A stretch of DNA of 64,000 nt from Sphingopyxis witflariensis. GTDB lineage: Bacteria > Pseudomonadota > Alphaproteobacteria > Sphingomonadales > Sphingomonadaceae. This document shows positions 9,780 to 55,442 of this stretch, piece by piece. Each line of letters opens with the position of its first letter. Positions within the stretch are counted from its first letter, which is position 1. The position numbers were made by a program, and so were the translations under genes. The notes below the pieces were generated by a model that was not told where the DNA came from, did not search any database, and worked only from the letters and a program-made list of their open reading frames with translations. The stretch spans positions 1-64,000 of the forward strand of contig NZ_NISJ01000005.1 of NCBI RefSeq assembly GCF_002205635.1, given 5' to 3'.

Positions 9780-9809
9780 TGCGTTATACATTGGCAAAAA
9801 TATTACGCA
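9780..9809. promoter_or_regulatory. Cluster operator copy 1 (divergent promoter)
   Basis: TGCGTT-N18-TACGCA, an inverted repeat with the same 18-base spacing as six other copies in this window. It lies between the divergent ene-reductase and SDR genes, 19 bases upstream of the SDR ATG. Probably a repressor site overlapping one or both promoters. Confidence 0.65.
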
Positions 9810-9828
9810 AATGGAGAGTGAATTGCCT

Positions 9829-10581
9829 ATGACCTATGATTTTTCCGGAAAAGTCGCACTGATCACCGGCGCCAGCGGCGGCATCGGCCGTGCCACCGCG
9901 CTCGCCTTTGCAGGAGCGGGGGCGTCAGTCGTGGTCAGCGACGTCAATGTCGCTGGCGGCGAGGAAACGGTCGGGCTGATCGAGAGTGCGGGCGGCAAGG
10001 CGATTTTTCAGGCCTGCGACGTCGCCGACGCCGATGCGGTCAAGGCCCTCGTCAAGCGCGCGGTCGATACCTATGGTCGGCTCGATTTCGGCCACAACAA
10101 CGCCGGCGTGACCCATATGGCCGCCGACGAGTGGGACGAGGCGGTGTGGAACCGGTCGGTGTCGATCAACTTGGACGGCGTGATGCATTGCATGCGCGAA
10201 GAGGCGGCGGCGATGCTCGCCAATGGTGGCGGCGCGATGGTCAACACCGCGTCGATCAACGGCTTCACCGGCAACGCCGTTCAGCCGGGCTATGTCGCCA
10301 CGAAGCATGGCGTGATCGGCTTGACCCGTCACGGCGCGCTGAAATGGGCGCGCAGCAATATTCGCGTCAATGCGGTGTGCCCCGGGGTGATCGAGACCCC
10401 GATGACCGACAGCGTCGCCAGCAGCCCCGAGATGCGCAAAGTGATGGAAGCGATGACCCCGATGGGCCGCATGGGTCAGCCCGAGGAAGTTGCCCATGCG
10501 GTGCTATGGCTGTGCAGCGATCAGGCGAGCTTTGTGACGGGCCATCCGCTGGTGATCGACGGCGGCGCGACGGTGAGTTGA
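9829..10581 (+). CDS. Short-chain dehydrogenase/reductase (SDR)
   Basis: A 250-residue classical SDR: cofactor motif TGASGGIG, NNAG, the catalytic serine in NTASING, YVATK for the Tyr-Lys pair, and a C-terminal VIDGGATVS. The ATG at 9829 follows GGAGAG (9813-9818) and the protein then starts at the usual distance from the Rossmann motif. The acidic residue after strand 2 (VSDVN) suggests NAD(H). It could be a hydroxysteroid dehydrogenase, judged by its operator and by the genes around it, but position on the steroid is unknown. It is transcribed alone and away from the downstream minus-strand operon. Confidence 0.88.
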   Translation: MTYDFSGKVALITGASGGIGRATALAFAGAGASVVVSDVNVAGGEETVGLIESAGGKAIFQACDVADADAVKALVKRAVDTYGRLDFGHNNAGVTHMAADEWDEAVWNRSVSINLDGVMHCMREEAAAMLANGGGAMVNTASINGFTGNAVQPGYVATKHGVIGLTRHGALKWARSNIRVNAVCPGVIETPMTDSVASSPEMRKVMEAMTPMGRMGQPEEVAHAVLWLCSDQASFVTGHPLVIDGGATVS

Positions 10582-10626
10582 TTGGGGGCTGGGGCTGGGG
10601 CTTGGGTTCCGCAACTTAAGCCCAAA

Positions 10627-10726
10627 GCCCGTTCGTGCTGAGCTTGTCGAAGCACCGCTCTTCTTTCTTTTCGACGCCTGAAAGAAAGAGCGGCCCTTCG
10701 ACAAGCTCAGGGCGAACGGCTTTTTT
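10627..10726. repeat. REP-like inverted repeat, possible terminator
   Basis: Long imperfect inverted repeat whose outer arms contain CTGAGCTTGTCGAAG and CTTCGACAAGCTCAG, with inner arms built on CCGCTCTT/AAGAGCGG. It is followed by a run of six T at 10720-10726. This is the common intergenic palindrome of sphingomonads and similar bacteria. It sits exactly between the convergent SDR and fadD3-like genes, where it could stop transcription from both sides. Confidence 0.75.
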
Positions 10727-10742
10727 GTGGAGCGCGGTGACC

Positions 10743-12272
10743 CTACCCCCGCAGCGCGGTCTTCAGCACCTTGCCCGACGCATTGGTCGGCAGTTCATCC
10801 AGCAGCACGACACTGCGCGGCACCTTGTAATTCGCCATATTCTCGCGCGCCCAGCCCAGAATTTCGGCCTCGGTCACGCTGCGCTGCGGGCGCAACACGA
10901 TGAAGGCGCGCCCGACCTCTCCCATCCTTTCATCAGGCACCCCGATTACCGCAACACTGGCAATGTCAGGATGCTCAGCCATCAATTTCTCGACCTCGGC
11001 CGGATAGCAGTTGAAGCCGCCGGAAATATACATGTCCTTCTTGCGGTCGGTGATCTGGACATAGCCTCCGGCGTCCATCGTCCCGATGTCGCAGGTGTGC
11101 AGCCAGCCGTCGCCGTCGATCGCCTCCGCCGTCGCAGCGGGGTCATCGAGATAGCCGAGCATCACGGCATAGCCGCGCACGCAAATCTCGCCGGTGTCGC
11201 CGCGCGAAACCTCCTGCCCCCGTTCGTCGGCGACGATCACCTCGACCCCCGGGATCGCCTTGCCGCAGCTGCGCGCGACGAGCTCTGGCGGATCGCCCGC
11301 CTGGCAGGCGGTGATCGTCGTGCACTCGGTCATGCCATAGGCGGTCAGCACGCGGTCGAAGCCGAGTTCGTCCTTCATCCGCCGGATCAATGACGGCGGC
11401 ACCGATGCCGCCCCCGTCATCGCGCTCTTCAGCGAGGATGAATCAAATTTCCGGCCTTCGAGTTCGGCGAGCAGCGATTGATAAATGGTCGGTGCGCCCG
11501 GGATGAAGGCGATGCGGTCGCGCTCGATATGCTCGATCGCCTTGGCGACATCGAACACCGCCATCGGCACGATCATCGCCCCCGCGAGCAGCGCCGCAAC
11601 CCACCCCGCCTTGTAGCCAAAGCTGTGGAAGAAGGGGTTGATGATCAGATAGGGATCACCGGGTTCGAGCCCGACAAGCTCGATCCAGCCCGCGAACATC
11701 GGGATGATCCGCCCGTGCGTCGTCACCACACCCTTGGGCTGGCCAGTCGTGCCGCTGGTGAACATGATGTCGCTGACCGTATCGGGCGAGAGCGCCGCGA
11801 GCGCGGCATCGATGCGCGGGTCGTCGGCGCGGCCGGTCGCGACAAAGCCGTCCCATTCGCGGTCGAAACAGATGATCTCGGCGAGGTCGGGCAGGTCAAC
11901 CTTCGCGAGCATCGCGGGATAATCGGTGCCCAGAAAATCGCCGACGGTGAACAGCAGGCGGCTGTTCGTGCGGCGCAGGATGTCCGATGCCTCGGCCGCC
12001 TTCAGCCGCGTGTTGAGCGGGACGATCGCGGCGCCGGTCGCCTGCGCCGCGATCGCGGCGACGATCCACTCGCGGCCGTTCGGCGCCCAGATCGCGACGC
12101 GGTCGCCGGGTCCGACACCACGCGCTAGCAATGCCGAGCCCGCGACGCGGACCTCTTGCCATAGCCGCGCATAGCTCCAGCGCTCGCCGCGATCCAAAAT
12201 CGCCGGGGCATCGCCGAAACGCGACGCGCCCCATTGCGCGAGATGGGGGATGGTCGGCGGCAGCGCGGACAT
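10743..12272 (-). CDS. fadD3: FadD3-like acyl-CoA ligase (steroid C/D-ring HIP activation)
   Basis: A 509-residue ANL-superfamily ligase with the AMP-binding P-loop FTSGTTGQPKG (about 171-181), the YGMTE core motif, GWLHTCDIG and a C-terminal catalytic lysine in ASGKVLK (about K501). Overall it resembles mycobacterial FadD3, which attaches CoA to 3aα-H-4α(3'-propanoate)-7aβ-methylhexahydro-1,5-indanedione (HIP), the C/D-ring remnant after rings A/B are removed. It is the last gene of the minus-strand operon that carries the other HIP genes (ipdA/B/C/F, echA20, fadA6), one base after the isomerase gene. A different acid substrate is possible but the context is strong. Confidence 0.82.
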   Translation of the reverse strand: MSALPPTIPHLAQWGASRFGDAPAILDRGERWSYARLWQEVRVAGSALLARGVGPGDRVAIWAPNGREWIVAAIAAQATGAAIVPLNTRLKAAEASDILRRTNSRLLFTVGDFLGTDYPAMLAKVDLPDLAEIICFDREWDGFVATGRADDPRIDAALAALSPDTVSDIMFTSGTTGQPKGVVTTHGRIIPMFAGWIELVGLEPGDPYLIINPFFHSFGYKAGWVAALLAGAMIVPMAVFDVAKAIEHIERDRIAFIPGAPTIYQSLLAELEGRKFDSSSLKSAMTGAASVPPSLIRRMKDELGFDRVLTAYGMTECTTITACQAGDPPELVARSCGKAIPGVEVIVADERGQEVSRGDTGEICVRGYAVMLGYLDDPAATAEAIDGDGWLHTCDIGTMDAGGYVQITDRKKDMYISGGFNCYPAEVEKLMAEHPDIASVAVIGVPDERMGEVGRAFIVLRPQRSVTEAEILGWARENMANYKVPRSVVLLDELPTNASGKVLKTALRG

Positions 12273-12273
12273 G

Positions 12274-12651
12274 TCAGGCGGGTTTCATATTTTCGGGACC
12301 GAAGAAAGCCCGCATTTCGACGACCTTGCCTTCATCGTCGAATTTGAAGATATCGATCACTTCGATCCGCATCGCCTGCCCCTCGATGTCAAGCGTGACC
12401 ACGAAGGGAAAGGCGGCATAGTCGCCGGCACAACGGATCGGGCCTTCGAGCGTCAATTGCGCGCCCATCGAAATGCCGACCGCCATGAAGTCGCGGATAG
12501 CGGTCTTGCCCACCAGCGGCGGCGACCCGACCGGATCCTCGGCGGTCGCGTTATCAGCGAACACGGCCACGACACCCTCGAGGTCGCCCCGGCCATAAGC
12601 GGCGATATAGGCTTCGACGGCCTGAATCTGGTCGGCGGCGGTGACAGACAT
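12274..12651 (-). CDS. ksi: Steroid Δ5-3-ketoisomerase (KSI)
   Basis: A 125-residue NTF2-fold protein that aligns along its whole length with the Comamonas testosteroni isomerase. All three catalytic residues appear in place: Tyr15 (VEAYIAAYGRGDLEG), Asp39 (ATAEDPVGS) and Asp100 (EVIDIFKF); the family pattern is Tyr14/Asp38/Asp99. The enzyme shifts the Δ5 double bond of a 3-keto steroid to Δ4. The ATG at 12651 gives the canonical N-terminus; longer in-frame extension upstream overlaps the MaoC gene and is not used. It sits between maoC and fadD3 inside the ring C/D operon, although it acts at the very start of the pathway. Confidence 0.9.
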   Translation of the reverse strand: MSVTAADQIQAVEAYIAAYGRGDLEGVVAVFADNATAEDPVGSPPLVGKTAIRDFMAVGISMGAQLTLEGPIRCAGDYAAFPFVVTLDIEGQAMRIEVIDIFKFDDEGKVVEMRAFFGPENMKPA

Positions 12652-12652
12652 A

Positions 12653-13114
12653 TTAGCTCTCCGGAAAATAGCGGCTGATCGTATCGACGACGCAGGCGGG
12701 CTTGTCCTGCCCCTCGATCTCGATGGTGACCCGGACGATCGACTGGATCGCGCCCTTGACCTCCTCGACCGCGACAATCTCGCCACCTGCGCGGATGCGG
12801 GCACCGACCGGGACCGGTGCCAGAAAGCGCAGCCGGTCGGCGCCGACATTGACCGCATGGGCAAAACCGCGCACTTCGACAAGGTCGGGCAGGAAGAAAT
12901 TGACGAGGCTCATCGTCAGATAGCCATGCGCGATGGTGCCGCCGAACGGCCCCGCTTTGGCGCGCTCGACATCGACGTGGATCCATTGATGATCGCCGGT
13001 CACCTTGGCAAAGCCGTCGACGCGCTCCTGATCGATCGTCAGCCAGTCGGTCGGGCCGAGCGCCGTTCCTTCCTGACCGATCAGATCGCGTGGATTGTCA
13101 TAGATTTTGGTCAT
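12653..13114 (-). CDS. MaoC-like (R)-specific enoyl-CoA hydratase
   Basis: A 153-residue single hot-dog domain protein. The hydratase-2 motif is present: DHQWIHVDVERAKAGPFGGTIAHGYLTMSL, with the catalytic Asp and His in DxxxxH. It hydrates trans-2-enoyl-CoA thioesters. Its ATG (13112-13114) overlaps the ipdF stop by four bases and its own stop is one base before the isomerase ATG, so it is translated as part of the operon. In this setting it probably acts in beta-oxidation of a ring C/D or side-chain CoA intermediate; the exact step is not clear. Confidence 0.86.
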   Translation of the reverse strand: MTKIYDNPRDLIGQEGTALGPTDWLTIDQERVDGFAKVTGDHQWIHVDVERAKAGPFGGTIAHGYLTMSLVNFFLPDLVEVRGFAHAVNVGADRLRFLAPVPVGARIRAGGEIVAVEEVKGAIQSIVRVTIEIEGQDKPACVVDTISRYFPES

Positions 13115-13890
13115 GCCCGCTGGCTCGACACCGACAGCACTTCGCCGGTCATGTAGGAGGCGAGGTCGCTGGCGAGGAAGAGCATGACATTGGCGACCTC
13201 CCACACCTCGGCGGGGCGCCCGAACGCCTCGCGCGCCGCGAGTTCGTCGAGCAGTTCGTCGGTCGTCACCTTGGCCAGGAAGGCGTGCATCGCGATGCTG
13301 GGGGCGACGGCGTTGATCCGCACGCCAAATTCGGCGGCCTCGACCGCCGAACATCGGGTAAAGGCCATCACGCCCGCTTTCGCCGCGGCATAATGCGCCT
13401 GCCCCTTTTGCGCGCGCCAGCCGAGCACCGAGGCATTGTTGACGATCGCGCCGCTCTTGCGATCCTGCATGTGCGGCAGGAAAGCGCGGGTCATGCGGAA
13501 CACGCTGTTCAGCGTAACGTCGAGGACGCGGTGCCATTGATCGTCGCTCATATCGACGACCGAAACTTCGCCGCCGAGTCCGGCATTGTTGATCAGCACA
13601 TCGATATGTCCCAGCTCGGCAATCGCGGCATCGCGCAGCGCATCGACCTGCGCCTGATCGGTGACGTCGCAGATGCAGGTCGCGGGACGGTGCCCGGTTT
13701 CGGTAGCGATCCGGTCGGCAGCTTCGCCAAGGCGGCGCTCGTGGAAATCGCTGATCAGGACGCGCGCGCCCTCTTCGGCGGCACGCTTGGCGACGGCAAA
13801 GCCGATGCCGGTGCCCGCCGCGGCGGTGACGACGACGGTCTTTCCCTTCACCAGATCGCGCGGGGTCGGATATGTCGGAATCAGGCTCAT
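13111..13890 (-). CDS. ipdF: IpdF-like 5-hydroxy-HIP-CoA dehydrogenase (SDR)
   Basis: A 259-residue SDR strikingly similar to mycobacterial IpdF (Rv3559c): VVVTAAAGTGIG at the cofactor site, SDFHERRLGEAA, VNNASVLGWRAQKGQAHYAAAKAGVMAFTRCSAVEAAEFGVRINAV and GRPAEVWEVA. IpdF oxidises the 5-hydroxyl of 5-OH-HIP-CoA derivatives during ring C/D degradation. The ATG at 13890 (MSLIPTYPTPRDL) fits the family start. It overlaps the fadE30-like gene upstream and maoC downstream by four bases each, matching the neighbourhood of ipdF and fadE30 in actinobacteria. Confidence 0.9.
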   Translation of the reverse strand: MSLIPTYPTPRDLVKGKTVVVTAAAGTGIGFAVAKRAAEEGARVLISDFHERRLGEAADRIATETGHRPATCICDVTDQAQVDALRDAAIAELGHIDVLINNAGLGGEVSVVDMSDDQWHRVLDVTLNSVFRMTRAFLPHMQDRKSGAIVNNASVLGWRAQKGQAHYAAAKAGVMAFTRCSAVEAAEFGVRINAVAPSIAMHAFLAKVTTDELLDELAAREAFGRPAEVWEVANVMLFLASDLASYMTGEVLSVSSQRA

Positions 13891-15065
13891 GCTACACCTC
13901 GGGGTTCGCGCGGCATGCCGAGCGCGCGCTCGGCAATCATATTGCGCTGGATCTGGTTGGTGCCGCCGTAAATCGTGTCCGCGCGCGAATAGAGGAACAG
14001 GTTGGGCAGCGTGTCCCATTCATAGTCGGGACCGGTTCCAATCTCGCCCGCCTGTCCCAACACGTCCATCGCCAGTTCGCCAAGCGAGCGGCGCCAGCTC
14101 GCCCACTGGATCTTGTAGGTCAGCGCCGCGCCGTCGACCTTGCTATGGTCGCTGTTCGACAACATCCGAAGCGCGCCGTAACGCATCAGGTGGAGCCCGA
14201 TTTCGGCCTTGGCGAGCCGCTGGCGGATCAGTGGATCGCTCGCGCTGCCATTGGCCCTGGCGGCAGCGATGATTTCATCGAGTTCATTGCGGAACCCCAT
14301 TTGCTGGCCGAGCGTCGACACCCCGCGCTCGAACGCGAGCAGCCCCATCGCGATCTTCCACCCCTCACCCGGCGCGCCGATCAAACTGTCGGCGGCGCAG
14401 CGCGCGTCGGTGAAGAAGGTCTCGTTGAATTCGGCGTCGCCGTTGATCTGCTCGATTGGGCGAATGTCGATTCCTGGCTGGTCGATCTCCATCATCAGGA
14501 AGGTCAGGCCTTTGGGGCCCTGCGATCCCTCCTCGCTGCGCGCGATGACGAAAATCCAGTCGGAAATATGCGCGAGGCTGGTCCATATCTTCTGCCCGTT
14601 GACGACCCATTCATCGCCCTCGAGCCGCGCCTTGGTCCGCACGCTGGCGAGGTCGGACCCGGCATTGGGTTCGGAAAAACCCTGACAAAAGATCGTCTTG
14701 CCCGCCGCAATATCGGGCAGGAAGCGCGCCTTCTGCTCCTCGGTCCCGAACGTCAATATCGTGGGACCGGCGAGTTCAATGCCGATATGGTTGACGCGGC
14801 CCGGAACCCCGGCGCGGGCATATTCCTCGGCGAAAATCACCTGCTGCGCGAGCGTCGCACCGCGTCCGCCCCATTTTTCGGGCCAGCCGATGCACGACCA
14901 TTTGTGCGCGGCGAGCTGTTGCTCCCATTCCTTGCGCCGTTCGGCCTTGGCGGTCAGCGTCGTGATGCCCTTGATATCGCTAAATTCGCCCGCCATCTGG
15001 CCGTCCAGCCAGTCGGCACATTCGGCGCGGAAATCTTCCTCCGCTTTCGAGAAGCCGAGTTTCAT
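13887..15065 (-). CDS. fadE30: FadE30-like acyl-CoA dehydrogenase, long (alpha-type) subunit
   Basis: A 392-residue acyl-CoA dehydrogenase resembling mycobacterial FadE30: CIGWPEKWGGRG, CQGFSEPNAGSDLASV, WVVNGQKIWTSLAHISDW, PIEQINGDAEFNETFF, FERGVSTLGQQ and the C-terminal FAD contact IYGGTNQIQRNMIAERALG. FadE30 introduces a double bond into the propionyl-CoA side chain of 5-OH-HIP-CoA. The usual catalytic-glutamate position near YEG/TN reads YGG here. It lies directly beside a shorter acyl-CoA dehydrogenase gene with a 4-base overlap, suggesting a mixed alpha2beta2 enzyme as known for several steroid acyl-CoA dehydrogenases. Confidence 0.82.
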   Translation of the reverse strand: MKLGFSKAEEDFRAECADWLDGQMAGEFSDIKGITTLTAKAERRKEWEQQLAAHKWSCIGWPEKWGGRGATLAQQVIFAEEYARAGVPGRVNHIGIELAGPTILTFGTEEQKARFLPDIAAGKTIFCQGFSEPNAGSDLASVRTKARLEGDEWVVNGQKIWTSLAHISDWIFVIARSEEGSQGPKGLTFLMMEIDQPGIDIRPIEQINGDAEFNETFFTDARCAADSLIGAPGEGWKIAMGLLAFERGVSTLGQQMGFRNELDEIIAAARANGSASDPLIRQRLAKAEIGLHLMRYGALRMLSNSDHSKVDGAALTYKIQWASWRRSLGELAMDVLGQAGEIGTGPDYEWDTLPNLFLYSRADTIYGGTNQIQRNMIAERALGMPREPRGVA

Positions 15066-16117
15066 GCCGCTTCTCCCAAAATCATCGCGGCCACCTGTTC
15101 GCGGTGCCAGTTGCCGTTTTTCAGCAAGGTCTGGATCGACCGCGCGCGCTTGAAGAACAGATGCGCGTCATGTTCCCAGGTGAAGCCAATGCCGCCGTGA
15201 AGCTGGATCATGTCGCCCGCGCATTTGAAATAGGTGTCGGCGGCAAAGCTCTTCGCCGCGTGGAGCGCCAGCGCGCTATCACCCGATTGTTCATCGACCG
15301 TGCAGGCCGCCCAATAGACCGCCGAGCGCGCCTGTTCGATTTCGACCATCATGTCGGCAAGGCGGTGCTTATAGGCCTGAAAACTACCGATCGCGCGGCC
15401 GAACTGGACGCGCTCCTTGGCGTAAGCGACGGTGCGGTCAAGGCACGCCTGCGCGCCGCCGAGCGCCTCGGCGGCGAGGCAGATCCAGCCGCTGTCCTGC
15501 GCCGCCGAAGCGGCTGCGCTCGCATCCGGTAGCGGCGTTCCGGCCGCGCGGTCGAGTATGATAGTGGCCAAGGGCCGCGTCTGATCCATCGTCAGATGCG
15601 CTTCGACCGTGACGCCCTTCGCCCCGGTTTCGACGAGCCATGCACCACCGGGTGCGATCACCAGCAGGATGTCGGCAACATTGCCGTGCGCAACGAAATC
15701 GCAGCGCCCCGTCAACATGTCATCATCGGCTTTCAGGTCAGCGCACTCAGCGGCAACCGCGATCAGTTCACCACTCGCAATGCGCGGCAGCCATTCGCCT
15801 TTCTGCGCGTCGCTGCCGCCCGCCGCGATCGCACTGCCGGCCATCGCCTGACCAAGCAGCGGGATCGCCGACACTTGCGCGCCCGCCGCCTCGGCGACGG
15901 TAGCAAATTCAACCATACCGAGCGCCGCGCCGCCAAATTCCTCGGGCAGCGACAGCCCGCCAAAGCCCAGTTCCTGACAATAAGCGCGCCACAGGTCGCG
16001 GTCGACGCCATCGGCGGCCATCGCCCCCCGCGTGCGTGCGCTCGTCGAATTTTCGGCAAAGAACTGCCGCGCGGTGTCGGCGATCATCGCCTGTTCGTCG
16101 GTGAGTGCGAAATCCAT
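15062..16117 (-). CDS. Acyl-CoA dehydrogenase, short (beta-type) subunit
   Basis: A 351-residue acyl-CoA dehydrogenase homologue, about 40 residues shorter than usual. It shows LGFGGLSLPEEFGGAALGMVE, RVQFGRAIGSFQAYKHRLADM and LHGGIGFTWEHDAHLFFKRA, and it lacks the Y(E/G)G-T-N-E/QIQRN tail. In known heterotetrameric steroid acyl-CoA dehydrogenases the two subunits split FAD binding and catalysis in this way. The ATG at 16117 (MDFALTDEQ) is the natural start. Gene order and 4-base overlap with the FadE30-like gene make it the likely partner subunit. Exact substrate among ring C/D CoA esters is not determined. Confidence 0.82.
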   Translation of the reverse strand: MDFALTDEQAMIADTARQFFAENSTSARTRGAMAADGVDRDLWRAYCQELGFGGLSLPEEFGGAALGMVEFATVAEAAGAQVSAIPLLGQAMAGSAIAAGGSDAQKGEWLPRIASGELIAVAAECADLKADDDMLTGRCDFVAHGNVADILLVIAPGGAWLVETGAKGVTVEAHLTMDQTRPLATIILDRAAGTPLPDASAAASAAQDSGWICLAAEALGGAQACLDRTVAYAKERVQFGRAIGSFQAYKHRLADMMVEIEQARSAVYWAACTVDEQSGDSALALHAAKSFAADTYFKCAGDMIQLHGGIGFTWEHDAHLFFKRARSIQTLLKNGNWHREQVAAMILGEAA

Positions 16118-17024
16118 TATGCGGTTCCCCACACCTTGCGCGGCGCGGTGCGCGCGGCGAGCAGCCCATCGACTGCGCCGCCGACGTCCGACGGTCGCCA
16201 TGTCGCGCCGGCATCGACCAGCGGCCCTTCGCGCCAGCCATCCTCCAGCATGATCTTGCCGCCTTCGAGTTCGAAGACGCAGCCGGTGACATGCGCGCTT
16301 TCGCTGCTGCCCAGCCAGACGACGGTCGGCGCGATATTGGCGGGGTCCATGACGTCGAAGGCATCGCCTTCAGTCGCCATCTTGTCGGCGAACGCCTGTT
16401 CGGTCATCCGCGTCCGCGCCGAGGGCGCTAGCGCATTGGCAGTGATGCCGTAACGCCCGAGTTCAGCCGCCTGAACCAGCGTCAGCGACGCAATTCCGCC
16501 CTTCGCGGTCGAGTAAGCCGCCTGCGCGATCGAACCCTGAAGCCCCGCCCCCGACGTCGTGTTGATGATCCGCGCGTCAACCGCATGGCCCTGTTTCTGC
16601 TGCCCGCGCCAATAATCGACCGCATGGCGGCTGACACAGAAATGACCGCGCAGATGGACGTGCATCGTCGCATCCCATTCGTCGAGCGTCGCCGACACGA
16701 ACATCCGGTCGCGGACGATCCCGGCATTGTTCACGACGACATGCAGGTCGCCGAACGCCGCAATCGCGGCATCGACGATGCGCTTGGCGGCGTCCCAGTC
16801 GGTGACATCTTCATAATTGGCGATCGCCTTGCCGACGCCGCCCGCGTTGATTTCGGCAACGACGGCGTCCGCCGCCGACGTGTCGCGCCCCTCACCCGCC
16901 AGCGATGTCCCGATGTCGTTGATCACGACATTGGCGCCTTCGGCCGCAAAGCCGAGCGCATAAGCCTTGCCCAGCCCACGCGCCGCGCCGGTGATGATGA
17001 CGGTCCGTCCTTCGCAAAGTGTCA

Positions 17025-17025
<1 letters not shown>
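16117..17025 (-). CDS. SDR, 3-hydroxyacyl-CoA/hydroxysteroid dehydrogenase type
   Basis: A 302-residue SDR of the subgroup related to the dehydrogenase half of multifunctional peroxisomal beta-oxidation enzyme (17β-HSD4-like). It has TGAARGLGKAYALGFAAEGANVVINDIG, NNAGIVRDRMF, NTTSGAGLQGSIAQAAYSTAKGG with the Ser/Tyr/Lys set, and a C-terminal extension typical of that branch. Such proteins oxidise 3-hydroxyacyl-CoA esters, and one is commonly found in actinobacterial cholesterol clusters near fadE and fadA genes. Start at 17025 (MTLCEGRTV) overlaps the thiolase stop by one base. Likely beta-oxidation of the opened C/D rings. Confidence 0.83.
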
Positions 17026-18176
<1,151 letters not shown>

Positions 18177-18185
18177 CAGATTTCC

Positions 18186-21042: not shown

Positions 21043-21046
21043 GGGT

Positions 21047-43954: not shown

Positions 43955-44007
43955 AAATACGATCGACATGGAGTCGACGCACATCAACGGACAGAAATGA
44001 GGGTGGT

Positions 44008-47213: not shown

Positions 47214-48085
47214 TGGCTATGCCCAAAGACATCGGCATTATCGACTGCATGCTCGGGATTCCCGAAAGCGAACATCGCGCCGACTGGTTCGACAGCTTCA
47301 AGCCGATGATCAAGGATGCCGAAACGCTGAAGCAATTCTCGATGCCCGCGCAATATATGTTCAAGGACATTCCGCAGTCGGGCGCGGTCGACGATTTCGT
47401 CCAATGGACGGTCGACGAGATGGACCGGTTCAACATCGACAAGGCGATGGTCGGCTGGAACGATAATGCGACCTCGCGCCGCGCGAAGGAGAAGTTCGGC
47501 GACCGTTTCTTCTTCGATCTGCCGTGCGATCCCAACAAGGGGGTCGAGGAGGTCCGCCGCATCAAGCGCATCCATGCCGAGGTCGGGCTGTCGGCGATCA
47601 GCGTGTTTCCAGCGGGCACGCTGCCGCAGGTCGCGATCAACCATAAATATATGTTCCCGCTCTATACCTGCGCCGCCGAACTCGGCCTGCCGATCTGCCT
47701 CAACGCCGGGATTCCGGGGCCGCGCATTCCGATGGAAACGCAAAAGGTCGAGCATCTCGACGAGGTATGCTGGTTCTTCCCCGACCTCAAGGTCGTGATG
47801 CGCCACGGCGCCGAGCCGTGGGAGGCGCTGGCGGTCAAGCTGATGCTAAAATGGCCGAACCTCTATTATTCGACCAGCGCCTTTGCCCCCAAACATTATC
47901 CCAAGGCGATCATCGATTACGCGAACACGCGCGGCGCCGACAAGATCATCTATGCCGGATATTTCCCGATGGGGCTGAGCCTCGACCGGATTTTCAGCGA
48001 CATGCCGAACGTGCCCTTCAAGGACGAGGTGTGGCCGAAATTCCTGCGCGAAAACGCGATCAAAGTCTTTGGATTGGGAGCCTGA
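47213..48085 (+). CDS. Amidohydrolase-2-fold protein with degenerate metal site
   Basis: A 290-residue protein with ACMSD-like amidohydrolase topology (IGIIDCMLGIPES, CAAELGLPICLNAGIPGP, FFPDLKVVMRHGAEPWEALAVKLM, KIIYAGYFPMGLSLDRIF). The metal-binding HxH that normally follows the first strand reads DCML, and the late Asp of the TDYP-type motif reads AGYFP. A metal-dependent hydrolase is therefore unlikely as drawn. It is tightly coupled to the CoA-ligase gene before it and is 3 bases from the Rieske gene after it. Possible roles include a retro-aldol-type or hydratase step on a CoA ester, or a non-catalytic partner; none can be chosen from sequence. Confidence 0.72.
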   Translation: MAMPKDIGIIDCMLGIPESEHRADWFDSFKPMIKDAETLKQFSMPAQYMFKDIPQSGAVDDFVQWTVDEMDRFNIDKAMVGWNDNATSRRAKEKFGDRFFFDLPCDPNKGVEEVRRIKRIHAEVGLSAISVFPAGTLPQVAINHKYMFPLYTCAAELGLPICLNAGIPGPRIPMETQKVEHLDEVCWFFPDLKVVMRHGAEPWEALAVKLMLKWPNLYYSTSAFAPKHYPKAIIDYANTRGADKIIYAGYFPMGLSLDRIFSDMPNVPFKDEVWPKFLRENAIKVFGLGA

Positions 48086-48088
48086 GCG

Positions 48089-49186
48089 ATGAATGACAGC
48101 GTCACTGATGCCCGCACCGCGCCCGTCGCGGTTTGGCGGTTGCTCGAGAATATGTCGAAGGACGAGTTGAAGGCGTGGCGTATCGCCCCGATCGACAATG
48201 CCGTCCCAGCGGCGGAGCGCAACCTCGACACCCCTTACCCCTTTGGCTGGTATCCCGCGCTGCTCTCGGACGAGTTGCAGGTCGGTGAGGTAAAGCCGCT
48301 GCGCTATTTTTCAACCGAGCTGGCGATCTGGCGCGGCGAAGACGGGACGGTGCGGATGCTCGACGCCTATTGCAAGCATCTCGGCGCGCACATGGGGCAT
48401 GGCGGCAAGGTCAACCGCAATCTGCTCGAATGTCCGTTCCACGCCTGGCGCTATGACGGCGAAGAAGGCGTGGTTAAGGACATTCCTTACGCGCGCGCCA
48501 TCCCGCCGCAGGTGAAGCGCAAATGCACCCGCACCTGGCATATCCGCGAAGCCAACCGGATCATCTGGATGTGGTATCACCCCGACGATGTCGCGCCCTT
48601 GTTCGAGGTCGTCCACAGCCCCGAGGCGACCGATCCCGACTGGAGCGAATTCCAGATCGCCGAGTGGAATATCTATGGCAGCATCCAGAATATGGCCGAG
48701 AACGGCGTCGATTTCGCCCATTTCAAATTCATCCACGGCACCGCGAACCTACCGATGGGCGAGTTGCATTGGGGCGACGGCTATGATCGCAGCAGCGTGC
48801 TGCGCGCCAAAATGGGCACCCCGCGCGGCGAGGTCGATGGCGAGATCACCAGCGCGTCGCAGGGTCCGGGCCAAAATTGGGTGCGGTTCACCGGCATCTG
48901 CGAGACGCTGCTGATCGCCTGCGTCACCCCCGTCGAGAAGGACCATCTGAAGGTCCGCTATCTCTACACTCAGCCGAAATCGCAAAAGGACGGCCCCAAC
49001 GCGGGGCTCGCCCGCGCGATTATCGCCGACGTCAACAAGCAGATGGATCAGGACAAGGTGGTGTGGGACCGGATGCGCTATGAGCCCAATCCGATCATCT
49101 GTGACGGCGACGGCCCGATCCCCAAATTCCGCCAATTCTACTCGCGCTATTACACAGCGCCGACCGCTGTCAGAGCGAGCGCCTGA
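48089..49186 (+). CDS. Rieske non-heme iron oxygenase (KshA/DAF-36-like)
   Basis: A 365-residue oxygenase. Rieske ligands: C95 and H97 (AYCKHLGAH), C115 and H118 (CPFHAWRYDG). Mononuclear iron: H211 and H216 in NMAENGVDFAHFKFIHGT. This arrangement is that of steroid-type Rieske enzymes (KshA, DAF-36/Neverland). It carries about 45 extra N-terminal residues before FGWYPALLS. It lies in the operon with two CoA ligases and an amidase, so a side-chain or alternative ring position is as likely as C9. The reductase that should supply electrons is not nearby. Confidence 0.82.
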   Translation: MNDSVTDARTAPVAVWRLLENMSKDELKAWRIAPIDNAVPAAERNLDTPYPFGWYPALLSDELQVGEVKPLRYFSTELAIWRGEDGTVRMLDAYCKHLGAHMGHGGKVNRNLLECPFHAWRYDGEEGVVKDIPYARAIPPQVKRKCTRTWHIREANRIIWMWYHPDDVAPLFEVVHSPEATDPDWSEFQIAEWNIYGSIQNMAENGVDFAHFKFIHGTANLPMGELHWGDGYDRSSVLRAKMGTPRGEVDGEITSASQGPGQNWVRFTGICETLLIACVTPVEKDHLKVRYLYTQPKSQKDGPNAGLARAIIADVNKQMDQDKVVWDRMRYEPNPIICDGDGPIPKFRQFYSRYYTAPTAVRASA

Positions 49187-50713
49187 ATGGGGCCCCCATC
49201 GGATCTGACCCGCCGCGACCTGCTGACAAGCGGTGCCGCGGCGGCGGCAATGGTCGCGCTCCCGCAGGCGGCACAAGCGAAGGGAGGGGTGATGCGAAGC
49301 GACCCATTGGACGATCACGACGCGCTCGGCCTCGCCAAGCTCGTGCGCGATAAAGCCGTATCGCCCGCCGAACTGCTCGACATAGCCGTCGCGCGCGCCG
49401 AGGCCAGCAATCCGCGCTTCAACTTCATGGCGCAGAAACTTTATGATTCCGGCAAGAAGGCGATCGCCGACGGGCTGCCCAGAGGGCCGTTCCAGGGAGT
49501 GCCGTTGCTGGTCAAGGATCTGAACACCCATATCGCGGGCGAGCGCAGCGGACAGGGGAGCCGCTTCTATGCGGACTATCGCCCCGACTATACGTCCGAA
49601 CTCGTGCGGCGCCATCAGGCCGCTGGTTTCGTGATCTTCGGCAAGACGACGACCCCTGAGTTCGGGTTGACCGGCACTACGGAATCGCTGGCCACTGGCC
49701 TGACGCGCAACCCATGGAACCCCGACCATATCGCCGGCGGATCGAGCGGAGGCTCGGCGGCGGCAATCGCGGCGGGGGTCGTCCCGCTCGCCCATGCCTC
49801 CGACGGCGGCGGGTCGATCCGTATCCCGGCGTCGTGCTGCGGCCTGTTTGGGCTGAAGCCCAGCCGTGGCCGTGTGCCGATGGGGCCGAAGCGGACCGAA
49901 GGCTGGGGCGGGCTATCGACCCATCATGCGATCAGCCGGACGGTACGCGATTCCGCCGCGATGCTCGATGCGACCCACGGCGTCGAAATCGGGTCGCGCT
50001 ATGGCGCGCCGACCCCCGACGGCAGCTTTTTGTCACAAGTCACCAAAGCGCCGGGCAAGCTGCGCGTCGCGCTGATGCTCGACACGCCCGGCGGAACACC
50101 CGTCGATCCCGAATGCGCGGCTGCGGCGCGCGCGGCGGCGAAGCTGCTCGAAAGCCTCGGCCATTATGTCGAAGAAGCCTCGCCCAAGGTGAATGCGCAA
50201 GCGATCGGCATGGCCAATTTCGCAACGATTTCCAGCGCGCTCGCCGCCGATATCGAGGATCGCGCCAAGCTGACTGGCATCGCGCCATCGCCCGACGTGC
50301 TCGAAAAAGTGACCCTGATCTTCCTGCAATATAGCAAGAATTTCAAAGCCATCGACGCGGTCCGCGCGAGCAATATCTATCAGGAAACCGCGATCGCGCT
50401 GGGGCAGTTCATGACCAGCTACGACATCATCCTGTCGCCGACGATGGCGATGCCACCGGTCAAGCTCGGGCGGCTCGACATGATGCCCGCCGACTTCGAA
50501 AAATGGGGACAGGATGCCTCGGCGTTCACGCCATGGACCGGGCTGTTCAATGTCAGCGGCCAGCCGAGCATGTCGATGCCGCTGGCGATGTCGGCGGGCG
50601 GCCTGCCGATCGGGGTGATGATGACCGGCCGTTATGGCGACGAAACCACGCTGCTGCGCCTCGCCGGACAGGTCGAGCGAGCCGCGCCCTGGTTCGACAA
50701 GCGGCCCGCCTGA
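49187..50713 (+). CDS. Tat-exported amidase (amidase-signature family)
   Basis: A 508-residue amidase-signature protein with the Lys-cisSer-Ser triad: K110 (VPLLVKDLN), S186 ([10 protein letters not shown]) and S210 ([16 protein letters not shown]). The 24-residue step between the two serines is the family value. The N-terminus [20 protein letters not shown] is a twin-arginine signal with cleavage near AQA, so it likely acts in the periplasm. It starts directly at the Rieske stop (49186/49187). Hydrolysis of amino-acid-conjugated steroid acids is an attractive possibility, but amidase substrates cannot be predicted from sequence. Confidence 0.84.
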
Positions 50714-50763
50714 CTATCGGGGGCGCCAAGCCCCGCCCAAATTTTAAGAAGCAAGGAAGACCA

Positions 50764-51525
50764 ATGCGCGGACTGAACGGAAAAATCGGAGTGGTCGCGG
50801 GCGGCGGACGCGGGATCGGCGCGGCGACCGCGATGCGGCTCGCCGACGAGGGCGCACTCGTCGTCGTCGGCGACATCAATGAGGAATGGGCGAAGGACAG
50901 CGCCGCCGCGATCACCAAAAAGGGCGGCAAGGCGATCGGCGTCTATCTCGACGGGACCAGCGCGGATTCGCAGAAAGCCATCGTCGCTGCCGCGCTTGCC
51001 GAATTTGGCGGGCTCGACTTCTTCCATTCGAACCTCGCGGGCGGGACCGAGGGCGACGTTGATGCTCTTAACTGCCCCGAAGATGTCTTCGACCGCTCGG
51101 TCGCGATCAACCTGAAAAGCCATTTGCTGGCGACGCAGGCCGCGCTCCCCGCGATGCTCGAACATGGCGGCGGCGGCGCGATGATCTATACCAGTAGCGG
51201 CGCCGCATCGGCGGGCGCGGCGTGGCAGGTCGCCTATCCGATGACCAAGAACGGCATCCACGCGCTCGCCCGCCATGTCGCCGCTAAATGGGGCAAGGAC
51301 GGCATCCGCGCCAATGTGATCTGCCCCGGGCTGATCATGACCGAGGCCGTCGCGCAGCATCTGTCCGAGGCGCAGGTCAACGACATGCGCCAGCGCACCC
51401 CGTCCCCACGGCTAGGCAAGCCCGACGATATTGCAGGCGCGGTGGCCTTCCTCGCGTCGGACGACGGCATCTTCATCAACGGCCAGGTCTGGCACGTCAA
51501 CGGCGGCACTCAGATGCGCGACTAG
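50764..51525 (+). CDS. SDR
   Basis: A 253-residue SDR: KIGVVAGGGRGIGAATAMRLADEGALVVVGDIN with Asp after strand 2, FFHSNLAGGTEGD in place of NNAG, YTSSGAASAGAAWQVAYPMTKNG with Ser/Tyr/Lys, and NGGTQMRD. The ATG at 50764 has AAGGAAG about six bases upstream. Both the Rossmann motif (AGGGRGIG, not TGxxxGIG) and NLAG are atypical, marking a distinct subfamily. It lies between the amidase and transporter genes of the same operon. Confidence 0.83.
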   Translation: MRGLNGKIGVVAGGGRGIGAATAMRLADEGALVVVGDINEEWAKDSAAAITKKGGKAIGVYLDGTSADSQKAIVAAALAEFGGLDFFHSNLAGGTEGDVDALNCPEDVFDRSVAINLKSHLLATQAALPAMLEHGGGGAMIYTSSGAASAGAAWQVAYPMTKNGIHALARHVAAKWGKDGIRANVICPGLIMTEAVAQHLSEAQVNDMRQRTPSPRLGKPDDIAGAVAFLASDDGIFINGQVWHVNGGTQMRD

Positions 51526-51567
51526 CGCACGCGGACAAGCTGCAAACCGGAATATGAGGAGAATCAG

Positions 51568-52854
51568 GTGAACATATCGGTCGCAGCGTCGCCGACAGCG
51601 GCACGGCAGTCCAGCCCATGGGTGGTGCTGATCGTCTTTCTGTTCATCTATATCTTCAACTACGCCGACCGCTATCTGATCTCGGGGCTGGTCGATCCGA
51701 TCAAGGCCGAATTTGGCGTCGGCGACCAGTTTATGGGGCTGTTGATGGGCCCGGCCTTCGCCGTGCTCTATACCACCATCGGCATCCCGATCGCGCGCCT
51801 CGCGGACCGCTCGTCGCGCATCGCGATCATTTGCATCGGCTGCCTGATATGGAGCCTGTTCACCGGCCTGTCGGGCTTTGCCACCGGGCCATGGACGCTC
51901 GCGCTGGCGCGCGTCGGCGTCGGCGTTGGCGAAGCCGCCTTCGTCGCCCCCGCCTATTCGATCCTGTCCGATTATTTCCGCCCCGAAAAGCGCGGCATGG
52001 CCTTTGCCGTTCTCGGCCTTGCGGTCTATTTCGGCCAGATCACCGGCTATGCGGTCGGCCCGCGCATCGCCGACGCCCATGACTGGCGTATGGCCTTTTT
52101 CGTCATGGCGGTCCCCGGCATCCTGCTGTCGGGCATCGCCTGGCTGCTGGTCCGCGAACCGACCCGCAAGCAGATATTGACCGTCGCAAACCAGATCCCG
52201 CTCCTTCCGCTGACGAAAAAGCTGATCCGGTCATCGGCCTTTGTCCTGATGATGATCGCGATGGGGCTCGGCACATTGTCGGGGGTCAGCTTCGGTTTCT
52301 GGGGGCCCGCCCTGTTCACCCGCCTCTATGACGTACCGCTGGCCGAGGCGAGCAGCACCTTCGGCCTCTATTTCGGCAGCGCCGGCCTGATCGGCATGCT
52401 CTTGTTCGGCGCCTTCGCTGATAAGGCAGCGAAGGGGGGGCTCGAACGCCCGCTAAAAATGGCGGCGGGCGCACTGCTTGCCGCATCGGTCTGCATCATG
52501 CTCGTCACCTGGAGCGACAGTCTCGCCATGGCGAAACTCTTTGCCATCCCCTCCGGTCTGCTCGGCGGCGGCTGGTCGATCGGCATCATGGCATCGCTGC
52601 AATATCTGCTGCCCGACCGTTTCCGGGCCACCGGGACAGCGCTGTTCATCATGGTCACGACCTTTTTGGGATTTGTCGTCGGGCCGTGGGCGACGGGCGC
52701 GCTGAGCCAATATTTCGGCGATGGCGACCTGTCGCTGCGTTGGGCGCTGACCATCATCATCCCCACCGGGATGGTCGCTGCGGTGCTGGCGTGGCTCGGC
52801 GCGCGCTATCTGGAATCCGATCGCGCGATCCTGGCCGACCCCGATGCCGCATAG
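51568..52854 (+). CDS. MFS transporter (spinster-like)
   Basis: A 428-residue protein with about 12 hydrophobic helices. FIYIFNYADRYLISGLVDPIKAEFGVGDQFMGLL, the loop motif GIPIARLADRSSRI (about 70-83) and FSILSDYFRPEKRG-type residues at the second repeat are typical of MFS carriers in the spinster group. GTG start at 51568 with GAGGA upstream. In a steroid operon it would move a substrate, intermediate or conjugate across the inner membrane; direction is not known. Confidence 0.86.
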   Translation: MNISVAASPTAARQSSPWVVLIVFLFIYIFNYADRYLISGLVDPIKAEFGVGDQFMGLLMGPAFAVLYTTIGIPIARLADRSSRIAIICIGCLIWSLFTGLSGFATGPWTLALARVGVGVGEAAFVAPAYSILSDYFRPEKRGMAFAVLGLAVYFGQITGYAVGPRIADAHDWRMAFFVMAVPGILLSGIAWLLVREPTRKQILTVANQIPLLPLTKKLIRSSAFVLMMIAMGLGTLSGVSFGFWGPALFTRLYDVPLAEASSTFGLYFGSAGLIGMLLFGAFADKAAKGGLERPLKMAAGALLAASVCIMLVTWSDSLAMAKLFAIPSGLLGGGWSIGIMASLQYLLPDRFRATGTALFIMVTTFLGFVVGPWATGALSQYFGDGDLSLRWALTIIIPTGMVAAVLAWLGARYLESDRAILADPDAA

Positions 52855-52902
52855 ACCCAGCCCATTCGTTCCACTTCGCCCGATGAAAAGATGGACTAGC
52901 CT

Positions 52903-53403
52903 GTGAAAAGAAATAAAAGTCCGGCGATGAAGAATGATTTTGAAATTGACGATACCGATCGCGCGATCATTGACGAACTGCGCCGCAACGGACGTGCGAC
53001 CAACCAGCAGATCGCCGAGGGACTCAATCTGACCGCGGCGACCGTCTCCAGCCGGATCCGGCGGATGGAAAATGCAAACAAGCTGCGCGTCGTCGCGGTC
53101 TCTGATTTCCGCGCCCACGGCTATAATGTGCTGATGGAGGTCGCGATCGAGGTCGACAACCGCCCCGCCACCGACGTCGCCCAGGAACTCGCCGCGCTTC
53201 CCGAAGTGTTTGCCGCGCACCTGACCACCGGACGGTACGACATCGATCTTTTGGTCGTACTCCAAACCATCGACCAGCTTCCCGATTTGCTGATGAACAA
53301 GTTCGGCAAGATCAAGGGCATCAGGTCGATGATCCCCGCCATCGCTGTCGATATCGTCAAATATAAATTCGACGTCGCGCCCATTGAAGCAAGAGAAGAC
53401 TGA
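52903..53403 (+). CDS. AsnC/Lrp-family regulator 1
   Basis: A 166-residue regulator. The N-terminal winged helix-turn-helix is at about 15-60 (DRAIIDELRRNGRATNQQIAEGLNLTAATVSSRIRRMENANKL) and the RAM/AsnC ligand domain at about 75-155. GTG at 52903 or ATG at 52927 may start it. Its stop overlaps the next regulator by one base. No copy of the cluster operator is found just upstream, so it is likely co-transcribed with the MFS operon. The only other regulator in the window, apart from its partner and KdpE, is the TetR protein at the left edge. Confidence 0.87.
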   Translation: MKRNKSPAMKNDFEIDDTDRAIIDELRRNGRATNQQIAEGLNLTAATVSSRIRRMENANKLRVVAVSDFRAHGYNVLMEVAIEVDNRPATDVAQELAALPEVFAAHLTTGRYDIDLLVVLQTIDQLPDLLMNKFGKIKGIRSMIPAIAVDIVKYKFDVAPIEARED

Positions 53404-53870
53404 TGGCGGATAGCCCGATCGACGAGATGGACCGCCAGCTGATCGAAATGCTGTCGCAGGACGCGCGCATGTCGAACCGCAAAATCGCCCTCGAACTGAA
53501 TGTGACCGAGGGAACCGTGCGCGGCCGCATCAAGCGGCTGCAACAGGAAAAGCTGATGTCGTTTACCGCGATCACCAGCGTCGATCTCGGCGAAGCGAGC
53601 AAGCTGGCGTTCATCGGAATCCAGGCCGACATGGGCAATCTGAAATCGATCGCCGACACGATCTCTGAAATCAGCCTGGTCACCAGCGTGCTGATCACGA
53701 TGGGCCGGTTCAACATATTGGCCATTTGTCTGTTCGACGATCTGGAACAGCTGCATTCGGTGGCGTCGGATCAGATCCTCGCGCTGCGCGGGGTTCACCA
53801 TGTCGAAACGTCGGTGGTCGTGAAGACGCTGAAATATAACAGCCGCATTGTCCGCATCACCGACGACTAA
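53403..53870 (+). CDS. AsnC/Lrp-family regulator 2
   Basis: A 155-residue regulator: DEMDRQLIEMLSQDARMSNRKIALELNVTEGTVRGRIKRLQQEKL for the winged helix, then a RAM domain with SLVTSVLITMGRFNILAICLFDDLEQL. It resembles regulator 1 in architecture but not closely in sequence. Start overlaps the previous stop by one base (TGATG), so the two are made in equal amounts and may form mixed oligomers. It is followed by operator copy 6 and kshA, hence a candidate controller of that promoter. Confidence 0.87.
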   Translation: MADSPIDEMDRQLIEMLSQDARMSNRKIALELNVTEGTVRGRIKRLQQEKLMSFTAITSVDLGEASKLAFIGIQADMGNLKSIADTISEISLVTSVLITMGRFNILAICLFDDLEQLHSVASDQILALRGVHHVETSVVVKTLKYNSRIVRITDD

Positions 53871-53891: not shown

Positions 53892-53921
53892 CGCGTAACC
53901 TATGCCATATTATGCTACGCA
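53892..53921. promoter_or_regulatory. Cluster operator copy 6
   Basis: CGCGTA-N18-TACGCA upstream of kshA, ending 108 bases before its ATG. The first base of the left half differs from the consensus. Confidence 0.62.
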
Positions 53922-53965: not shown

Positions 53966-54029
53966 ATTTGATTTTTCTGCGATTCGTGATAGTCATGCCT
54001 TCGAAAAGATTCGCAGGTGAGGATGGCAC

Positions 54030-55106
54030 ATGGCAACCACGAACGACTATCGCCTCGGCGAATTCACCTATCCGCGCGGCTGGTTCATGATCGGTCGCTC
54101 CGAAGATGCGACCACGAAGCCCGAGGCGGTCCGCTATTTCGGTGAGGATATGGTCCTCTATCGCGGTCAGAGCGGCCGCGTCTTTTTGATGGAGGCCTAT
54201 TGCCCGCACATGGGCACGCACCTTGCAAAGAACACCACATCCTATGTCGTGATCGACGGCACCCAGGTCGAGGGCGATAATATCCGCTGCCCCTATCACG
54301 CGTGGCGCTTCGGACCCGACGGCCGCTGCAACGACATTCCCTACTCCCCTGCCCCGCCGCCTAAAAAGGCCTGCCTGAAAAGCTGGCAGGTGACTGAGCG
54401 CGCGGGCTGCCTGTGGGTTTGGAACGACGTCGAGGGCGGCGAAGCGGACTATCCGCTACCCGAGTTCCCGCAATGGGACGACCCGACGTGGATCAACTGG
54501 ACGATCGAAGATCTGGGCGAACTTGGCAGCCACCCGCAGGAGATCATCGACAATATGGCCGACAAGGGGCATCTCGTCCCCGTCCATGGCAGTCAGGACA
54601 TGGAATTGTTCGAAAATGAGTTCGACGGCCATATCTGCAGGCAGATATTGAAGGCCGGCCACCGCACGCTGACCAGCGGCGACGAAGGCATGACCAACGA
54701 CACCTGGTACACCGGCCCGGGGATTCTCCAGTCGGCAATGGTCGGCGACTATCCCTCGCACATGCTGATCGCGCACACGCCGGTCGACGATGGCGTCGTC
54801 AAAGTCTGGTATGGCCTGTTCGTCAAATCGCCGAACGCGGTTCCGACCGACGAAGATGTCGCGATCGCCAAAGCCTATGGCGACGCCGGGGTTCAGGCCT
54901 TTGCCCAGGATTTCGAGATTTGGGGCAACAAGCGCCCGTGCATCCACCCGATGATGGTCCGCGGCGACGGACCCTTCGACAAGGTGCGCATCTGGTACAA
55001 GCAATTTTACAACCCGCGGGCCGCTGCGGCGCAATATCAAACGCGCGTCAACGGCCTGTACATCTCGCGCGGCACCACGCGTGACCCCTGGGACGACGCC
55101 GCCTGA
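54030..55106 (+). CDS. kshA: KshA-type 3-ketosteroid 9α-hydroxylase oxygenase
   Basis: A 358-residue Rieske oxygenase that follows KshA throughout: YPRGWFMIGRS, Rieske ligands C58/H60 (YCPHMGTHL) and C87/H90 (CPYHAWRFGPDGRCNDIPY), GSHPQEIIDNMADKGHLVPVHG with iron ligands H181 and H186, FDGHICRQIL, and QAFAQDFEIWGNKRP...IWYKQFYN. KshA hydroxylates C9 of 1,4-diene-3-ketosteroids, making ring B open spontaneously. It needs the reductase KshB, which is absent here apart from a broken relative at 4078-4871. The gene has its own promoter with two palindromes. Confidence 0.88.
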   Translation: MATTNDYRLGEFTYPRGWFMIGRSEDATTKPEAVRYFGEDMVLYRGQSGRVFLMEAYCPHMGTHLAKNTTSYVVIDGTQVEGDNIRCPYHAWRFGPDGRCNDIPYSPAPPPKKACLKSWQVTERAGCLWVWNDVEGGEADYPLPEFPQWDDPTWINWTIEDLGELGSHPQEIIDNMADKGHLVPVHGSQDMELFENEFDGHICRQILKAGHRTLTSGDEGMTNDTWYTGPGILQSAMVGDYPSHMLIAHTPVDDGVVKVWYGLFVKSPNAVPTDEDVAIAKAYGDAGVQAFAQDFEIWGNKRPCIHPMMVRGDGPFDKVRIWYKQFYNPRAAAAQYQTRVNGLYISRGTTRDPWDDAA

Positions 55107-55141
55107 CCTTCCGGTGGTGATGGGCCTCGGCTAATCCAAGC

Positions 55142-55218
55142 CGTCATTGCGAGCGGAGCGAAGCAATCCAGGGCGGCCTTGCACCGTTCTGGATTGCTTC
55201 GCTCCGCTCGCAATGACG
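55142..55218. repeat. Inverted-repeat element (REP-like), copy B
   Basis: Two perfectly complementary 29-base arms (beginning CGTCATTGCGAGCGG and ending GAAGCAATCCA) around a 19-base loop GGGCGGCCTTGCACCGTTC. The loop is the reverse complement of the loop of copy A, so the two copies face each other across about 17.7 kb. As a transcript it would form a very strong hairpin after kshA and may stop transcription. Confidence 0.88.
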
Positions 55219-55412
55219 ATTCATGAACGGCGCGCGCACCGCCCCACTTAGCACTCGATCGCACGACACGACCTCTGACTCGCCGGGGCGACGAACCCGC
55301 GATCGCACGCCCGAACCTGCCACGCGAATCACGGCCGACGCACATCAATTGCGGATTGATATATGCAAAAATATCTCATCTTGATGGTCCAATCATCACA
55401 ATTCTCGTGATT

Positions 55413-55442
55413 TGCGTAATTGAGATTGACTTTTTATACGAA
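55413..55442. promoter_or_regulatory. Cluster operator copy 7
   Basis: TGCGTA-N18-TACGAA upstream of the second TonB receptor, ending 61 bases before its ATG (55504). The rest of the 397-base gap after kshA holds the repeat at 55142-55218 and no gene. Confidence 0.68.

Follow-up and report, generated by a model that had tools for sequence, protein, structure and literature searches.

In a 64,000-nucleotide stretch of the Sphingopyxis witflariensis genome (contig NZ_NISJ01000005.1, positions 1 to 64,000; hereafter the window), a 30-bp palindrome, TGCGTA-N18-TACG(C/A)A, recurs at the promoters of a steroid-degradation supercluster. This element is best explained as the operator of a regulon: its sites are real, their 18-bp spacing is fixed, and their position is intergenic. 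Sequence comparison further makes it likely that the regulon serves steroid catabolism and is conserved in the Sphingomonadaceae, and that the operator is read by two adjoining Lrp/AsnC-family regulators, which we call A and B, or by close paralogs of them, with the two probably acting together.

The original prediction listed seven strong sites and one weaker copy in the window. All seven are present and their 18-bp spacing is exact, but only five match the pattern in full, at 26471, 26662, 42097, 43925, and 55413, with zero matches in 100 shuffles; those at 9780 (left half TGCGTT) and 53892 (left half CGCGTA) keep the spacing with one mismatch each. A scoring matrix built from 81 sites, all in other genomes, gave the seven strong sites scores of 21.8 to 43.7. 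Scanning the whole window with this matrix at a score of at least 6 returned those seven sites, the weaker copy at 36555, and nothing further. The weaker copy (36555–36584), between a TonB receptor gene (34184–36508, minus strand) and a SnoaL-like gene (from 36670, plus strand), does exist, but its score of 12.4 is marginal because it exceeds the 95% maximum (10.8) but not the top value (16.6) of a null in which the mononucleotides of the window's intergenic DNA were shuffled 300 times. The strong sites are all fully intergenic in a window of which 93.5% is called coding. Six of them stand 18, 19, 45, 53, 61, and 108 bp ahead of the chosen start codon, as predicted; the site at 26471 falls outside the proposed range of 18 to about 108 bp, at 133 bp from the nearest caller-chosen start, or less if the short-chain dehydrogenase/reductase (SDR) gene there begins further upstream.

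Elsewhere in this genome the exact pattern occurs at one place only, on a second contig (C2:64714, within a 20-kb stretch, L014, described below). When up to one mismatch was allowed, the genome held 11 forward and 11 reverse matches at 13 distinct places, against 10 and 9 for a reversed-pattern control, and in five named genomes the one-mismatch counts were not clearly above that control; exact matches are specific, the family scan giving this genome 5 and 3 by strand against 0 and 0 for the control. Because the one-mismatch count equals its control, specificity rests on the exact matches, on promoter position, and on the AT-rich spacers (judged by eye). The original prediction would have been refuted had the motif been equally common in unrelated DNA of the genome, and by matrix score it is not: in six other 20-kb stretches no score reached 8, and one (L046) reached 6.7. 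The parity at one mismatch is what one would expect if the sites were an accident or a compositional artifact of AT-rich promoter DNA. Set against the enrichment of exact sites, their intergenic position, their fixed spacing, and their conservation in other genomes, we give that explanation a vanishingly small chance of being correct.

The spacing test covered 54 loci (1.06 Mb, coding fraction 0.878), fetched mostly around homologs of B and some for the motif itself. At N18, all 42 exact sites (42/42) and 47 of 49 one-mismatch sites were intergenic, while N14–N17 and N19–N22 pooled gave 5 exact sites (5 intergenic) and 15 one-mismatch sites (7 intergenic). The symmetrized consensus of 90 sites reads wTkCGTAa, with an essentially invariant CG, a second position that is G in 85% and T in 14%, and an AT-rich centre to the operator. 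The centers of the half-sites lie 24 bp, or about 2.3 turns, apart, a poor fit to the earlier suggestion that two dimers bind two turns from one another.

As proposed, the element defines a regulon of the steroid supercluster, with genes for KshA, for HsaA-, HsaC-, HsaD-, and KstD-like enzymes, and for TonB receptors as targets. The supercluster also encodes a CoA-transferase-like protein, an aldolase, an acetaldehyde dehydrogenase, CoA ligases, an amidase, SDRs, and an MFS transporter; the names HsaA, HsaC, HsaD, and KstD are tentative because the proteins score below the curated NCBIfam (equivalog) cut-offs. The one-mismatch site TGCGTT-N18-TACGCA at 9780–9809 (score 40.6) lies between two divergent genes, for an FMN oxidoreductase (8683–9741, minus) and an SDR (9829–10581, plus). 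The exact site at 26471–26500 (score 40.1), which matches on both strands, occupies the divergent gap between a minus-strand operon, whose second gene encodes an HsaC-like extradiol dioxygenase (24687–25604, minus; HsaC model, E 1e-71, below cut-offs), and a plus-strand operon that begins with an hsaA-like monooxygenase gene (26737–27942, plus). The latter's start was set by inspection, the gene caller having chosen 26809, and its match to NF045629 (E 3e-101 for 26809–27939) is again below cut-off. Its operon is the target of the exact site at 26662–26691 (score 34.4), which lies over the predicted -10 of the hsaA-like promoter, with TTGACG just upstream.

The remaining sites surround the regulator genes. 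An exact site at 42097–42126 (score 32.0) stands where genes for an FMN oxidoreductase (minus) and an SDR (plus) diverge, and it heads a co-directional run (42145–53870) that ends in A and B. Within that run, another exact site (43925–43954, score 43.7) occupies a 128-bp gap ahead of a CoA ligase gene (44008), and between it and the A-B pair lie genes for two AMP-binding CoA ligases, an amidohydrolase, a KshA-like Rieske protein, an amidase, an SDR, and an MFS transporter (44008–52854, plus). The amidohydrolase, Rieske protein, and amidase precede the A-B pair at 47213–50713; the amidase starts with a twin-arginine-like signal (by eye) and might suit conjugated bile salts. Twenty-two base pairs past the stop codon of B, and 108 bp ahead of kshA (3-ketosteroid 9alpha-hydroxylase; 54030–55106, plus; Pfam KshA_C, E 1.2e-58), is the CGCGTA site that targets this gene (53892–53921, score 21.8). 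Last, the exact site at 55413–55442 (score 35.7) encloses the TTGAC of the predicted promoter of its target, a TonB-dependent receptor gene (55504–58050, plus). All genes come from a codon-based caller without curation, so some are missed or shortened; five A/B hits were left unpaired, and some A proteins are short at the N-terminus.

Genes A (52927–53403, plus) and B (53403–53870, plus) form a tandem pair between the end of the preceding genes (42145–52854) and kshA. Both pass the Pfam cut-offs of the family, with 51.9 and 50.0 bits for the AsnC-type helix-turn-helix (HTH; PF13404, cut-off 27) and 45.9 and 41.4 bits for the AsnC ligand domain (PF01037, cut-off 25). A is a proposed operator-binding subunit, and it is B whose presence we followed across a family set of 298 genomes, taking as a homolog any hit with E at most 1e-12. 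The exact motif occurs in 33 of 37 B-positive genomes versus 12 of 261 B-negative ones (Fisher p 1.9e-29, a value to be marked down because the genomes share ancestry), and all 29 genomes with at least two same-strand matches are B-positive. Ten of the 12 B-negative motif genomes have it at a single place; the other two (G090 and G201) have one match per strand, and thus either one palindromic site or two. In a class-wide draw of 230 genomes, this one included, 20 of the other 229 carry a site, and one of them carries two. The operator is conserved in relatives.

The original prediction had named two candidate regulators, these AsnC genes and a TetR gene in the window (4927–5505, plus). The TetR does not track the motif and was rejected: 27 of the 298 family genomes encode a homolog (E at most 1e-35) of the window's TetR, the only one tested, and only 7 of the 27 are among the 33 with motif and B, leaving 20 other genomes. 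Three lines of evidence favor the AsnC candidates: they co-occur with the motif, a second pair, on a different contig, is likewise linked to operators, and in Sphingobium operator and protein change in step.

The second pair is one of three tandem A-B pairs in this genome (contigs C34, C2, and C1), which has 17 places with an AsnC domain. On C2 (stretch L014, C2:58000–77999), the pair at 16815–17803 is accompanied by operators at 18357 (one mismatch) and 15450 (two mismatches), with another further off at 6715. Genes at 4941–19288 of the same stretch encode a TonB plug-domain protein, a cytochrome P450 and a Fer2 protein, a SnoaL-like protein, SDRs, and an alpha/beta hydrolase, and this cluster with its own regulators and operators is possibly another steroid or sterol module. 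We dropped the idea that the C2-type pair governs an unrelated regulon, as the loci of its homologs in other genomes contain an hsaA-like operon or a TonB gene headed by an operator. One divergent gap in L014 holds two adjacent operator-like sites, at 15418 and 15450 (scores 20.7 and 33.2), whose starts are 32 bp apart. Around the C1 pair (L046, 11611–12539), no operator was found in the 20-kb stretch, the best score being 6.7; the B protein of this pair also occurs in locus L121 of G224, a genome without a KshA hit.

Across the loci we counted 51 tandem pairs, including one cut repeat (L173 of L084), and A always comes first. B often has G(R/Q)FN where many A proteins have GRYD, and an operator follows within 120 bp of B in 16 of the 51 pairs. 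Two further observations concern operators in other genomes. In G071 (C1:753442 and 753668) and G139 (C53:281632 and 281858), which belong to one genus, near-identical pairs of operator-like sites stand 226 bp apart, the second carrying one mismatch. In a Rhodospirillaceae metagenome-assembled genome (G302), an operator with a score of 42.2 (L193, 1268–1297) lies between ribE- and ribD-like genes (by eye), which suggests that flavin supply may join the regulon there.

Co-occurrence has an obvious limit, since the operator could belong to a regulator encoded elsewhere, with the A-B pair a mere passenger of the steroid cluster. KshA is found in 38 of the 298 genomes, 36 of these 38 have B, and 36 of the 37 B-positive genomes have KshA; the two are so nearly coextensive that co-occurrence alone cannot separate the regulator from the genes it regulates. 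A passenger would also account for the four B-positive genomes (G057, G084, G224, and G253) that lack an exact site and do not rise above control when one mismatch is allowed, one of which, G224, has a C1-type pair as its sole B hit and no KshA hit, and for an operator longer than known Lrp dimer sites. Yet the two KshA-positive genomes without B (G049 and G172) have zero sites, even at one mismatch, and the window's TetR does not follow the motif. In 70 loci, mostly chosen around B and so biased toward it, the A cluster occurs in 53 and the B cluster in 52, and a by-eye check of first residues in the other protein clusters found in at least 7 loci turned up one possible HTH protein, in 8. This possible regulator (L089, 2–529, and similar proteins) lies near the steroid cluster and is cut by the locus edge. 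Proximity carries little weight either way, with 43 of 95 sites within 15 kb of B and 31 of 95 within 15 kb of KshA among the matches listed, many of them on short contigs. Together with the Sphingobium change described next, these observations lead us to consider it unlikely that A and B are passengers.

In two strains, Novosphingobium/Sphingobium sp. Chol11 (L085) and S. vermicomposti (L084), the main A-B pair has next to it an operator that reads TnCGGA-N18-TCCGnA. It follows B at the same place and with the same spacing as the CGTA/TACG type. The 40 kb around the Chol11 main pair holds three CGGA-type sites, and that around the S. vermicomposti pair four, the outer half being imperfect in two. 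Both proteins have altered recognition helices as well, which start LIASTVS instead of the usual LTAATVS in A and VNEGTVR instead of the usual VTEGTVR in B, and neither altered string was found in any aligned pair besides those of Chol11, S. vermicomposti, and S. quisquiliarum. The other A-B pairs of the same genomes (Chol11 has three pairs) keep the threonines in both helices where the HTH could be aligned, and these genomes carry an exact usual operator at the divergent promoter of the hsaA-like and hsaC-like genes (L188, 5489; L191, 5671; genes identified by matching N-termini by eye), as in the window. Operator and both helices thus change together, and we regard this as the strongest single hint, drawn from sequence comparison, that A and B are the binders. 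As a genome-wide marker, TGCGGA-N18-TCCGMA was useless and was discarded, since 192 of 298 genomes contain it and copies with one mismatch are common.

Not everything agrees with A and B as the readers of the operator, and the following points should be held against them. The co-change is confined to one clade and so counts as one event. S. quisquiliarum (P25, L086) has the same altered helices, with no site found near its pair, and one Chol11 site combines one half of each type. In L110, B has V for T and the usual operators are kept, and A likewise varies at its position beside usual operators (N in the C2 type; A in L087, L111, and L118), so neither threonine alone is essential. No site with a matrix score of at least 15 was found in the own fetched locus of 13 of the 51 pairs. 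General autoregulation was examined and found unsupported, as only 11 of the 51 pairs lie behind an operator-headed run.

How the operator might act is suggested by its position relative to predicted promoters. We looked for TTGAC on the coding strand in 130 site-gene orientations, with a gap limit of 350 bp, judging the kinds of genes mostly from size and first residues. Relative to the operator centre, TTGAC recurred at -24 in 7 cases, all before hsaA-like genes, at -27 in 8, before SDR genes, and at -2 in 11, before TonB-receptor genes. In these three classes the operator lies over the predicted -10 or -35, which favors repression by occlusion. A fourth position, +20, just downstream of the operator, occurred in 6 site-gene pairs with mixed genes and would suit activation as well. 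Because the counts come largely from orthologous promoters, they amount to only three or four independent classes, which lessens their weight.

These offsets bear on two other readings. Lrp proteins often act in both directions, activating some promoters and repressing others, and A and B might activate, or do both, rather than serve as a simple repressor. That would fit the six pairs in which the operator ends just upstream of TTGAC and the many sites in divergent gaps; coverage of a predicted -10 or -35 at the hsaA-like, SDR, and TonB promoters points the other way, and we find this version somewhat doubtful. The element could also be a directional promoter, for example of an extracytoplasmic function (ECF) sigma factor, with the half-sites as -35 and -10 boxes, given that the 18-bp gap is near the length of a promoter spacer and that sites stand shortly before start codons. 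We rejected it as highly improbable on account of the palindromy and of the TTGAC boxes at several set offsets from the operator; moreover, orientation to the downstream gene is not constant (43925 is reversed), and site-to-start gaps vary between -4 and 325 bp under the limit used.

Under the repressor reading that we prefer, A and B would bind the operator directly, as co-occurrence and the joint change of helix and operator suggest. Binding over the -35 or -10 would exclude RNA polymerase and so repress the uptake, ring A/B, and ring C/D operons. The pathway and the ligand domains together suggest that this repression would be relieved when the C-terminal domains bind a steroid or steroid-CoA intermediate. 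In this genome the pair may also control its own level, because it closes a co-directional run headed by operators. A more specific proposal, which we offer tentatively and with rather more doubt than confidence, is that A and B work only as a heteromer, an Lrp/AsnC repressor whose diverged ligand domains sense a steroid metabolite and which places two A-B dimers on each 30-bp palindrome. In the Sphingomonadaceae such a repressor would serve as the steroid regulator of the whole lineage, and where one genome holds paralogous pairs, as in Chol11, these would be insulated by matched change of both helices and both operator halves.

For a family of bacteria that degrade steroids and bile salts in the environment, the analysis provides a precise operator and names a candidate regulator pair to go with it; a shared operator could account for the on-off control of steroid degradation in them. 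As a signature, the operator may help to find unannotated steroid genes, and the two operator/helix types within one genome could be used for work on specificity. The motif had not been recognized as a published one, and we likewise found no description of it in one open-access library of papers, most subscription journals being outside the search.

A single operator at many aerobic steroid-degradation operons is also the arrangement of the mycobacterial cholesterol regulons of KstR and KstR2. The function is alike, but KstR belongs to the TetR family, whereas A and B are Lrp/AsnC proteins. According to the accessible part of one report, KstR homologs are absent from bile-acid-degrading Proteobacteria (PMC8399759). 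Closer in lineage is EdcR of Caenibius tardaugens (formerly Novosphingobium), which the available passages describe as a TetR repressor of estrogen degradation whose proposed operator overlaps the -10 (PMC8700777). It resembles the system proposed here in repressing steroid degradation from an operator over the -10; its operator as given there, TnnCnnTACnAnTnGTAnnGnnA, has a short centre and is unlike TkCGTA-N18-TACGmA, the consensus strings being compared by eye (PMC8700777). For the Chol11 bile-salt cluster, the accessible passages of another report mention two contiguous Lrp/AsnC genes, NCHOL11_RS15865 and NCHOL11_RS15860, with a suggested role in regulating amino-acid metabolism, and those passages assign them neither an operator nor targets nor a steroid regulon (PMC12882949). 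Judging by strain and arrangement, they are very probably one of the Chol11 A-B pairs, most likely that of L085.

Within their own family, A and B are typical in some respects and unusual in others. Lrp/AsnC (feast/famine) regulators typically assemble as oligomers of dimers whose binding to DNA is modulated by a ligand. The Lrp/AsnC operators described in the part of PMC2995911 available to us are imperfect inverted repeats of 13–17 bp with an AT-rich centre, and neighboring sites lie two or three turns apart. Our operator shares the AT-rich centre (PMC2995911), and the proteins have the expected HTH and ligand domains. It differs in being a 30-bp palindrome with half-site centers 24 bp apart, off the usual length and spacing of the sites in those passages (PMC2995911), so that we are proposing an Lrp-like protein on an untypical site, a further point against the assignment. 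Also unlike the family at large are the two tandem, diverged members in a conserved A-B order and their target, steroid degradation; if our reading is correct, the reach of Lrp/AsnC regulators would extend to steroid catabolism.

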